Assembly: GCA_030648295.1 (NCBI GenBank)
Contig: JAUSID010000085.1
Coordinates: 1 to 64,000 of the forward strand
Reading direction: 5' to 3'
From: Opitutaceae bacterium
GTDB lineage: Bacteria > Verrucomicrobiota > Verrucomicrobiia > Opitutales > Opitutaceae
DNA length: 64,000 nucleotides
Made by a program: the position numbers and the translations under genes. Shown in pieces: positions 33,331 to 36,602 of this stretch (within the stretch, counting starts at the first letter, position 1; every line of letters starts with the position of its first letter). A model generated the notes under the pieces. That model saw only the letters and a program-made list of their open reading frames with translations. It was not told the origin of the DNA and made no database searches.

Positions 33331-34701
33331 ATGTCGAACCTCGCGCCAACCTCCTCGCCGTCCACGCTGCAACTCGGCCATCTCGAGTCGCACTCGCGGG
33401 TACGCGTGGCGGTCATCGGCGGCGGGCCGGCCGGCTCGTTCTTCAGTTATTTCTTCCTCGAGCTGGCGGAGCGCGTGGGCCTCGACGCTCAACTCGACGT
33501 TTTCGAGCCGAAGAATTATGCCCGCGGCGGTCCCGCCGGTTGCAACATGTGCGGTGGCGTGGTCTCCGAGTCACTGGTGCAGATGCTCGCCACCGAGGGC
33601 ATCAACCTGCCGGCGACGGTCGTCGCCCAGGCCATCGACTCCTATGTGCTGCACATGGACGTGGGGGTGACACGGATCAAGACCCCGCTGCAGGAAATGC
33701 GCATCGCCGCCGTCTACCGCGGCGCCGGCCCGCGCGGCGCGCCGGAGAACACCTGGAGCAGCTTTGACCATTTCCTGCTCGACCGGGCGGTGGCGAAAGG
33801 CGCCCGCGTCGTGCCGGAAAGGGTACAGTCGGTGACCTGGAATGAAAGCCGTCCTCAGTTGAAAACGCGCGAGGGCACCTCCGGCACGTATGATTTCCTG
33901 GTGGTGGCCACCGGCGTGAACGGGGCGGCGCTCAAGATGTTCGAAGGGTTGGGGCTGAATTATCAGCCGCCGGGCACCTCGAAGACCTATATCGCCGAGT
34001 TTTTTCTCGGGCGCGAAACGATGGAAAAGTACCTCGGCCATGCCATGCATGTGTTCCTGCTCAATCTGCCCCGGCTGGAATTCGCCGCGCTCATCCCCAA
34101 GGGCGATTACCTCACGTTCTGCCTGCTGGGCGAGAACATCGACGAGGCCCTGGTGCAATCTTTCCTGAATTCCGCGGAGGTGCGCCAATGCCTGCCGCCG
34201 GGCTGGCAGCGACCGGAGAAATTCTGCCACTGCTCGCCGCGCATCACCACCAGCGGCGCGGTGCACCCGTTCGGCGACCGCGTGGTGTTCATTGGCGACT
34301 GTGGCATGGCGAGGCTCTACAAGGACGGAATCGGCTCGGCCTATCGCACGGCCAAGGCCGCGGCGAGGACCGCGGTGATGGAGGGCATCGCGCGCGGACA
34401 CTTCCATCGGCACTTCCGGCCCCTGTGCGAGGCCATTCGCCGCGACAATCTCGTGGGCAAGCTGATTTTTGCGTTCACCCGACAGATTCAACATCATCGC
34501 TTCGCCCGCCAGGCCATGTTGCGCATGATCACGCGCGAGCAACAAGGCTGCGGTGCGCCGCGCATGAGCATGGTGTTGTGGGATACATTCAGCGGCAGCG
34601 CATCGTATGGGGATGTCTTCCTGCGCACGCTGCACCCATTTTTTTGGTGCCGTTTGCTCTGGGAATGCCTCCGGAGCCTCCGGGCCCGTCCGCTAAACTG
34701 A
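33331..34701 (+). CDS. FAD-dependent oxidoreductase, geranylgeranyl-reductase-like
   Basis: This 456-residue flavoprotein has its FAD site VRVAVIGGGPAGSFFSYFFL at about 24-43 and a conserved Cys-containing PAGCNMCGGVVSESLVQ (about 69-85). The second dinucleotide-type strand DFLVVATGVNGAAL and GDRVVFIGDCGMARLYKDGIGSAYRTAK, the FAD ribityl-contact motif, complete the p-hydroxybenzoate-hydroxylase-like fold. The C-terminal 90 residues are helical with aromatic-rich ends, suggesting membrane contact. The CxxC-type Cys pair suits a reductase for isoprenoids or quinones. It is the first gene of a tight operon with two cyclic-nucleotide-domain proteins, with a stop-to-start gap of 0-18 bases. Confidence 0.87.
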   Translation: MSNLAPTSSPSTLQLGHLESHSRVRVAVIGGGPAGSFFSYFFLELAERVGLDAQLDVFEPKNYARGGPAGCNMCGGVVSESLVQMLATEGINLPATVVAQAIDSYVLHMDVGVTRIKTPLQEMRIAAVYRGAGPRGAPENTWSSFDHFLLDRAVAKGARVVPERVQSVTWNESRPQLKTREGTSGTYDFLVVATGVNGAALKMFEGLGLNYQPPGTSKTYIAEFFLGRETMEKYLGHAMHVFLLNLPRLEFAALIPKGDYLTFCLLGENIDEALVQSFLNSAEVRQCLPPGWQRPEKFCHCSPRITTSGAVHPFGDRVVFIGDCGMARLYKDGIGSAYRTAKAAARTAVMEGIARGHFHRHFRPLCEAIRRDNLVGKLIFAFTRQIQHHRFARQAMLRMITREQQGCGAPRMSMVLWDTFSGSASYGDVFLRTLHPFFWCRLLWECLRSLRARPLN

Positions 34702-34719
34702 ATGAAACAGGAGCATGCC

Positions 34720-35130
34720 ATGGAATCCGGAAACTTGGGCAAAATCTATCGCAACGGGGAAGTGATCATCATGCAGGGCGAAAACGGCGACTGCATGTAC
34801 GTCATCCAGGTGGGCGAGGTCGAAGTGCTGCAACGGCTCGGCTCCGATGAGGTCCGGCTGGCGGTGCTCGCGCCGGGCGATTTCTTTGGCGAGATGGCGC
34901 TCTTCGAACGCGAGGTTCGCTCCGCCACCGTACGCGCGATCGGCGAGGCCCGCGTGCTCACGGTCGACAAGCGCACGTTCATGAGCCGGGTGCACGAAGA
35001 TCCCTCTCTCGCCTACCGGCTCGTGAAAATCATGTCCCAGCGATTGCGGCGGCTGAACGCCGCCTATACGCGGGTCTCTGCCCATCCGTTCAATCAGTCC
35101 GCTGCCACGCCCTCGGCGCAGACTCCATGA
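34720..35130 (+). CDS. Stand-alone cyclic-nucleotide-binding domain protein
   Basis: This 136-residue protein is a single Crp/PKA-type cNMP-binding domain with no HTH or other domain. The phosphate-binding cassette is intact: FFGEMALF (Glu58) and [10 protein letters not shown] (Arg67), so cyclic nucleotide binding is plausible. The start at 34720 is chosen over 34702 because AGGAG at 34709-34713 is spaced six bases from it. It overlaps the next gene by ATGA and follows the flavoprotein almost immediately. It may act as a diffusible or docking regulator of its operon partners, but this is inference. Confidence 0.9.
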
Positions 35131-36602
35131 GCCAGCCCGCGCCACTGTCAGCCCTTCTCCGGCAGGTCGGGGTATTCGGCCAGCTCGATGACCAGGCCGT
35201 GCGGCTGCTCGAGGAGCAGATGCGGCTGGTCGTCTTTCAGCCGGGCGAGGTGCTCTGTCGCGAAGGCGAGCCCTCCGACCGGATGTTCATCATCGTCTCG
35301 GGCGAAGTCGCGGTGTTGAAGCAAGTGGACGGCGCGCAACCGGTCGAAGTGGCAATGCTCCAGGCGGGTGAAATTGCCGGCGTGATGAGCCTGTTCGGGC
35401 CGGCCCTGCGGTCCGCCACACTCCAGGCGCGCGGCGACGCCCGGGTGTGGACGCTCGACCAAGCGGCGTTTGACCAGTTGCTCCAACGCCACAGTGTCCT
35501 GGCCCGGGCCGTGCTCGCGTCGCTCAGCCGCCATTTGCGGCGCGAAACCTCCGTCGTCGCGCGGCTGCTCTCCCGCGACGACGCCCGGCGGTTCAAGATC
35601 GCGTTCTTCGATTCCAAGCCGTACGTGGAAACGGTTTTCCGCGAGCGCAACCGGCACAACGACGCGCTGGAGTTTTTCGAGGCGCGGCTCACGCGCGAAA
35701 CCGTGTCGCTCGCCGCCGGATTCAAGGCCGTGTGCGTGTTTGTCAACGACCGCGTTGATGCGGCGGTCGTCGAGGAGCTGCGCGATCTGGGCGTCGAGCT
35801 GATCGCCTTGCGCTGCGCCGGTTTCAACAACGTCGACCTGGCCGCCTGCGAGCGCCATGGTCTCAGCGTGGCGCGGGTGCCGGCCTACTCGCCTCATGCG
35901 GTGGCCGAACACGCCGCGGCCCTGATGCTGACCCTGAACCGCCGTATCCATCGTGCTCACACGCGGGTGCGCGAAGGCAACTTTTCCCTGGCCGGGCTGG
36001 TGGGTTTCGACCTGCACGGCAAGACGGCGGGCATCGTCGGCACGGGCAGGATTGGCCAGTGCCTGGCGCACATCCTGGCCGGCTTCGGCTGCCGGCTGCT
36101 GGCCCACGACGTGTTTCCCGATCCCAAGCTGGTCGAGCGCGCAGGGGTGCGCTACGTCCCGCTCGCCGAATTATTCGCCGCTTCCGACATCATCAGCCTG
36201 CATGCACCACTGACGCCGCAGACGCGCCACGTGATCGATGCCGCAGCCATCGCGCGGATGAAACGCGGGGTCATGCTCATCAACACCTCGCGCGGCGCGC
36301 TGATTGACACCCGCGCGCTGTTGCACGGATTGAAGACCGGGCAGATTGGCTACGCCGGCCTCGATGTCTACGAGGAGGAAAGTGAATACTTCTTCGAGGA
36401 CCGCTCTGATCGCGTCATCACCGACGACGTGCTGGCGCGGCTGATGACGTTCAACAACGTGATCGTGACCAGTCACATGGCGTTTCTTACCCGGGAAGCG
36501 CTGGCCAACATCGCCGATGTGACCCTGGACAACGTCCACGAGTTCATGCAGGGCAGGCGCGGCGTGGAATTGACGAACCGCGTCGCCGCTGCGGCGGGGT
36601 AA
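35127..36602 (+). CDS. cNMP-binding domain fused to D-lactate dehydrogenase
   Basis: The 491 residues are a fusion. Residues 1-140 form a cNMP-binding-like domain ([40 protein letters not shown]). The cassette Glu is replaced by Val86 while Arg95 is kept, so canonical cAMP binding is doubtful. Residues 157-491 are a D-lactate dehydrogenase of the LdhA type: IAFFDSKPY, the NAD site GIVGTGRIG (302-310), catalytic Arg389 in INTSRG, Glu418 in DVYEEE, and His450 in [32 protein letters not shown] is close to the LdhA C-terminal signature. All three catalytic residues are present, so it should reduce pyruvate with NADH under control of the N-terminal domain. Confidence 0.9.

Follow-up and report, generated by a model that had tools for sequence, protein, structure and literature searches.

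The locus and its fusion gene

The window analysed here is a 64,000-nucleotide stretch (positions 1 to 64,000, forward strand) of contig JAUSID010000085.1 from an Opitutaceae bacterium (Verrucomicrobiota; GenBank assembly GCA_030648295.1). It carries three packed genes, the last of which joins a cyclic nucleotide-binding (CNB) domain to an LdhA-type D-lactate dehydrogenase (LDH); their features are collected in Table 1. This arrangement, with its ATGA overlap, had been proposed from the sequence alone (the original prediction) and is confirmed by open reading frames (ORFs) and Pfam matches, the ATG of the fusion gene at 35127-35129 overlapping the TGA stop codon of the stand-alone CNB gene at 35128-35130. 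The residues named in that prediction are also in place: Val86, Arg95, Arg389, Glu418 and His450 in the fusion protein and, when numbered from the start at 34720, Glu58 and Arg67 in the free CNB protein.

Table 1. Coordinates of the three genes and of the parts of the fusion protein
Feature	Position	Strand	Remarks
Flavoprotein, FAD-type, remote member of the geranylgeranyl-reductase superfamily	33331..34701	+	First gene of the operon; L009 ortholog 83% identical
Stand-alone CNB protein, canonical phosphate-binding cassette	34720..35130	+	Glu58, Arg67 numbered from the 34720 start
CNB-LdhA fusion, 491 aa	35127..36602	+	Third gene of the operon; ORF and Pfam
CNB beta-roll, PF00027, residues 35-122	35229..35492	+	Val86 codon 35382-35384, Arg95 codon 35409-35411
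C-helix-like connector into the LDH domain, residues 123-150	35493..35576	+	AlphaFold model; CRP-family chain alignments run through the region
LdhA domain, residues 158-478	35598..36560	+	Arg389 36291-36293, Glu418 36378-36380, His450 36474-36476, Met451 36477-36479

Pfam matches to the fusion protein were PF00027 at residues 35-122 (7.3e-22; 77.6 bits, against a Pfam cut-off of 27.5), PF00389 at 158-478 (5.7e-32) and PF02826 at 265-452 (1.3e-55), and these scores exclude a chance domain match. The same scan of the fusion found no helix-turn-helix (HTH) family; the LDH occupies that place. All three catalytic residues of the LDH domain (Arg389, Glu418 and His450) are intact. The best match of the LDH part among solved sequences is LdhA of P. 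aeruginosa (5z20, 2.5e-120), with which the fold comparison agrees, and the gene is predicted to encode an NADH-dependent D-lactate dehydrogenase of the LdhA type. An AlphaFold model contains confident CNB and LDH domains joined by a helix at residues 123-150.

Occurrence of the fusion

The fusion was found in ten distinct genomes, in each as one open frame, although the copy in G745 is partial at a contig end. A frame error joining two genes, which would have undone the original prediction, is thereby excluded, since nine further genomes have the same architecture in one ORF. Five carriers are the window's genome (G000), a groundwater metagenome-assembled genome (MAG) of Verrucomicrobia (G524, locus L009, an 85% relative of the window) and three genomes placed in the window's phylum by kinship code (G275, G891 and G893). 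The other five are Spirochaetota: a Spirochaetia MAG (G523, locus L010) and G678, G702, G734 and G745 from the same phylum.

Surveys of overlapping genome samples showed that the fusion is rare. On the side of the window, it was present in 1 of 177 genomes of the order (37 with an LDH match at 1e-60), 2 of 387 of the phylum (128 at 1e-60), 3 of 148 from the class of G275 (16 at 1e-120) and 3 of 47 from the order of G893 (6 at 1e-120). The phylum of G523 yielded 5 of 344 genomes (39 with a match at 1e-100) and its order 4 of 30 (10 at 1e-100); none was found among 199 genomes from the phylum of G525, an Acidobacteria MAG (6 at 1e-100). At most four candidates per genome were scored in the surveys of 387 and 344 genomes, so that second copies can escape these counts. 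A GTDB contig scan, which reaches close relatives only, returned 34 loci with two fusions (L009 and L010).

We also compared 157 loci using a CNB profile. An LDH was present in 131, of which 105 had no CNB in the examined stretch and 26 had one; 23 of these were copies of the fusion (partly duplicates) and three had separate adjacent genes. When the CNB profile was used to seek a hidden, divergent CNB in 20 further matches from the two phylum surveys of 387 and 344 genomes, none was found; this was a non-exhaustive selection of the likeliest cases, 14 with an open frame of more than 400 aa and 6 in which the match began no later than query residue 138. The view that the CNB is a common, inert appendage of LDHs, raised as an objection when the fusion was first noticed, is thus excluded by the absence of a CNB from most LDH-bearing genomes surveyed, and purifying selection on the domain (see below) speaks against it too. 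We conclude that this rare, conserved sensor-LDH fusion is real.

Two of the carriers are large assemblies, G893 with 14.1 Mb and 9% contamination and G000 with 9.1 Mb and 4%; both are fragmented, and linkage beyond single contigs is uncertain. A common Spirochaetota neighbourhood was looked for and rejected: G678 and G702 have surroundings in common, but not with G734, and with G523 only a single 30% match, of a gene close to the fusion.

Origin and selection

To place the fusion among LDHs we used a tree of 99 rows built from the LDH part only, in which the bootstrap was not fully settled. Left out of its rows were duplicate loci, the CNB-only loci of the window's genome, L122 (truncated) and L035-L042 (distant or without an LDH). 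All nine complete fused proteins fall into a single clade (support 100/96), within which the window and L009 join the Spirochaetota fusions (97/86), apart from G275, G891 and G893. As judged from these sequences, the fusion is of one origin. The fused CNB domains likewise cluster together and apart from the pair of free CNB proteins (SH-aLRT 89 and 87 in two trees). Descent of the free CNB from the fused domain by duplication is unsupported by these CNB trees, which are built from short domains and include some long branches.

The strength of selection was estimated for three pairs. Between the window and L009, dN/dS (Nei-Gojobori) was 0.20 for the flavoprotein, 0.18 for the free CNB, 0.21 for the fused CNB and 0.12 for the fused LDH. 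For G893 and G891, with synonymous sites near saturation, it was 0.10 for the CNB and 0.07 for the LDH. Synonymous sites were saturated between G678 and G702, for which pN was 0.045 in the CNB and 0.069 in the LDH. By these sequence measures the fused CNB is under purifying selection in all three pairs.

No second LdhA was found in the genome of the window among the 26 candidates, all of them scored; the D-2-hydroxyacid dehydrogenase that comes next shares 35% identity. The fusion is the sole LdhA-type enzyme that we detected in this genome by sequence. G524 carries an extra, unfused LdhA that is 57% identical.

Two types of pocket in the fused domain

In the canonical phosphate-binding cassette (PBC) of CNB domains a Glu contacts the ribose. 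This Glu belongs to the canonical cassette given in PMC2246266. The cassette Arg, Arg95 in the window, is kept in all ten fused CNBs, and the Glu in three (G275, G891 and G893, with GEMS). The position is Val in the window and L009 (GVMS) and Ile in the five Spirochaetota (GIMS), so that the window's fused CNB, with Val86 for Glu and Arg95 present, departs from the canonical cassette. Throughout this Val/Ile subgroup the pocket positions G-[VI]-M-S and R-S-A-T are identical (7/7), as are R138 and V144 in the C-helix region. The original prediction had called the fused domain degenerate. Against this stand the three of ten fused proteins that keep the Glu and the Ile conserved in five Spirochaetota. 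From the alignment, we read the fused pocket as not simply decayed but retuned in the Val/Ile subgroup.

The two pocket types also differ in the enzyme. The residue after the catalytic His is Met451 in all six complete proteins of the Val/Ile subgroup, the window included, and Gln in the three Glu-keeping fusions and in all 90 unfused LDHs of the tree; this Gln is a usual feature of LdhA rather than a proven defining one. In an alignment with 22 unfused LDHs (A3), two positions near the junction set the fusions apart: residue 167 is V, T or M in the fusions and Asp in all 22 unfused proteins, and residue 168 is Glu in all ten fusions and Arg in 13 of the 22. LDH positions 180, 217 and 360 likewise distinguish the fusions from the unfused rows.

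Ancestry of the sensor and related systems

Profiles of the fused CNB align with several CRP/FNR chains across both C-helix and hinge, reaching positions 150/151 and 155/156, and the listed matches to PKA and PKG CNB domains stop at about 114-135. Ranked by E-value, an apicomplexan multi-CNB protein and CNBs of kinases come first, ahead of CRP/FNR regulators. The extent of the CRP/FNR alignments, together with the predicted helix at residues 123-150, suggests that the LDH occupies the HTH place of a regulator. All ten fused CNBs match the NCBIfam models for Pat, CRP, family 2B encapsulin and a bacteriocin-transport family, and five match that for NtcA; in the single row shown, all scores are far under the curated cut-offs.

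Sensor domains on enzymes are known from several systems. Mycobacterial Pat carries an N-terminal CNB on a GNAT-type acetyltransferase that is regulated by cyclic AMP (cAMP), and its NCBIfam model gives 49.3 bits against a cut-off of 460 in the row shown. With the tetrameric allosteric LdhA enzymes of Gram-negatives (P. aeruginosa 5z20, F. nucleatum and E. coli) the fusion has its LDH domain and catalytic residues in common. Bd1971, a CNB-EAL phosphodiesterase of cyclic di-GMP that the free and the fused CNBs alike match in sequence, has its CRP-like sensor N-terminal to the enzyme, as the fusion does. It differs in the enzyme and in that control by cAMP has been demonstrated; it is a precedent for a CRP-like sensor that keeps an enzyme active (PMC6717892). 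In Bact_Pyrredox, listed in Table 1 of PMC2246266, a CNB tandem is likewise attached to a redox enzyme, but the enzyme is a pyridine nucleotide-disulphide oxidoreductase, lies N-terminal to the CNBs and goes with a PBC consensus containing Glu. D-3-Phosphoglycerate dehydrogenase with its ACT and ASB domains is also a 2-hydroxyacid dehydrogenase to which a ligand-sensing domain is attached, differing in regulatory fold and in having L-serine as effector (PMC4230899). The D-LDHs discussed in the same paper are described as having no extra protein domains. Searches of open-licence papers gave none whose title or opening of the abstract describes the pair of CNB and D-LDH; one paper contains both terms, only in lists of separate genes.

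A parallel to the pocket is NtcA, a DNA-binding protein unlike the fusion, whose PBC consensus GVLSLLTGSDR (PMC2246266, Table 1) also has Val for Glu and keeps the Arg. NtcA binds 2-oxoglutarate; its Arg88 stands at the site of the Arg that contacts the cAMP phosphate in CRP, and Arg129 and Glu134' provide contacts on the C-helix (PMC12937710). The same paper describes CRP-family proteins that bind no ligand.

A putative allosteric module and alternative readings

The reading that we prefer, and consider somewhat better than evenly probable, is that the fusion is a D-LDH with a CRP-type allosteric module, whose pocket in the window's subgroup probably serves neither cAMP nor cyclic GMP (cGMP) or has become a ligand-free assembly element. 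The module, a CNB beta-roll with a long C-helix, would stand at the N terminus of the LDH, where CRP/FNR proteins carry their DNA-binding domain. Ligand in the pocket would probably shift the C-helix, which appears to continue into strand one of the LDH catalytic domain; this shift would alter domain closure or subunit packing of the LDH and hence its activity; we infer both the allosteric control and its direction. As the Val/Ile subgroup keeps the anion-binding Arg, its ligand is probably an anion other than cAMP or cGMP; alternatively, its CNB module may have turned into an assembly element without ligand. A cassette with Val or Ile and Arg fits either outcome, given the examples of NtcA and of the non-binding CRP-family proteins. 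The fused enzyme does not in general require the free CNB. So understood, the fusion is a plausible new way to control D-lactate dehydrogenase. An attached CRP-type sensor would, if this is true, control a fermentation branch point directly and independently of transcription, and a family with both canonical and changed pockets would offer a natural test of how a CNB changes ligand while its output is kept.

Several points weigh against this reading. Loss of the Glu would also suit a domain without any ligand, and the CNB evolves faster than the LDH in two of the three pairs, like a less constrained module. The association of Val/Ile86 with Met451 is a single split in the tree and thus one event, linking the two by lineage rather than by an established function. 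The AlphaFold model is poor at the junction (pLDDT below 50 at residues 146-149; pTM 0.65), which makes domain placement and helix continuity uncertain. L009 and L010 are MAGs, and the assembly quality of the fusion genomes is hard to judge.

The boldest form of ligand control would make the Val/Ile subgroup a metabolite-gated LDH, with an NtcA-like pocket that takes a 2-oxo acid or other carboxylate through Arg95 and a catalytic-His loop that changed along with it (Gln to Met). We regard this as doubtful; if it is true, carbon status would set D-lactate output at the enzyme itself. It is about equally doubtful that cAMP or cGMP still acts on the fused domain, as presumably on its Glu-keeping relatives, with Val or Ile only reducing affinity. 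Arg95 in all ten proteins, the Glu and Arg together in three relatives and the four near-complete class III cyclase domains in the genome would suit such a response, as would Epac, in which Gln replaces the Glu and which Table 1 of PMC2246266 lists as cAMP-dependent; yet a conserved hydrophobic residue in seven proteins of two phyla points to a changed ligand site rather than drift, and NtcA, with Val there, senses 2-oxoglutarate. Hardly more probable, in our estimate, is a CNB part that binds no ligand and serves the LDH in dimerisation or assembly. The faster evolution of the CNB in two pairs and the conservation of R138 and V144 in the C-helix are in keeping with this, and the CRP family includes non-allosteric proteins whose cavities are occupied by salt bridges (PMC12937710), but conservation extends beyond the helix to the G-[VI]-M-S and R-S-A-T pocket positions in 7/7.

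In one reading, the original prediction had gone further: the free CNB would sense cAMP or cGMP and signal to a degenerate fused domain, and one signal would govern the flavoprotein too. A tight three-gene operon, shared by two genomes at 81-85% identity with flanks that differ, and the canonical cassette of the free CNB are what this scheme would lead one to expect. As a general mode it is not supported, since the neighbours lie beside only two of the ten fused genes in the stretches read, some of them short, and the Ile-bearing Spirochaetota have no such neighbour there; the flavoprotein, moreover, was matched in one genome, that of the window, among 240 from the phylum (the G524 carrier was not among that survey's matches). 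Signalling in trans is not the likeliest reading, and we regard it as improbable. A special pairing of the free CNB with the fusion may exist in the two operon-bearing genomes.

The neighbouring genes

Conservation of the three-gene order, suggested as a check on the original prediction, was borne out in L009 and not in the eight other stretches, which lack the free CNB and the flavoprotein. These counts refer to the stretches read around the fused genes, which are short in the case of G891 (3.3 kb) and of G745 (5.8 kb); the remainders of the genomes were not searched. A search for sigma-70 promoters gave none, and terminator-like sites were at chance level.

The ORF of the free CNB spans 34702-35130 and opens directly after the flavoprotein stop codon. 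We prefer the alternative start at 34720, which follows an AGGAG and corresponds to the Met at which the L009 relative begins. The free protein matches PF00027 (1.8e-22; 79.5 bits, with the same cut-off) and has both PBC residues, Glu and Arg, of a canonical cassette. The window's genome holds eight PF00027 domains over cut-off and, besides the four class III cyclase domains over cut-off, two partial cyclase matches. The cyclase domains make it probable that cAMP or cGMP is available to the free CNB, which, with its canonical pocket, may bind either.

The flavoprotein scores 38.6 bits with TIGR02032 (geranylgeranyl reductase family), well below the curated cut-off of 158.8, which makes its earlier label as an isoprenoid or quinone reductase a guess. 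A search of solved structures gave no significant relative, a plasmid search gave no match, and the AlphaFold-type model is poor (mean pLDDT 54.9). The window's genome holds a 32% identical paralog (L132, 817-2925, minus strand; match at G000:C73:14772-16142), which has a C-terminal extension of about 200 residues, SRPBCC-like by eye; a GCNxCxG motif is common to both flavoproteins.

A different association of the two domains was seen in three genomes from the phylum of G523, in which a free CNB lies upstream of an unfused LdhA: L158 4161-5666 (G592), L159 3940-5447 (G615) and L160 4711-6218 (G620). The surroundings are syntenic in all three, which therefore count as one lineage. The small CNB gene has a canonical Glu and Arg cassette and lies directly upstream on the same strand, and the LdhA falls outside the fused clade. 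The gap between the two genes contains, by eye, a GGTAWTATAWTAC-like palindrome.

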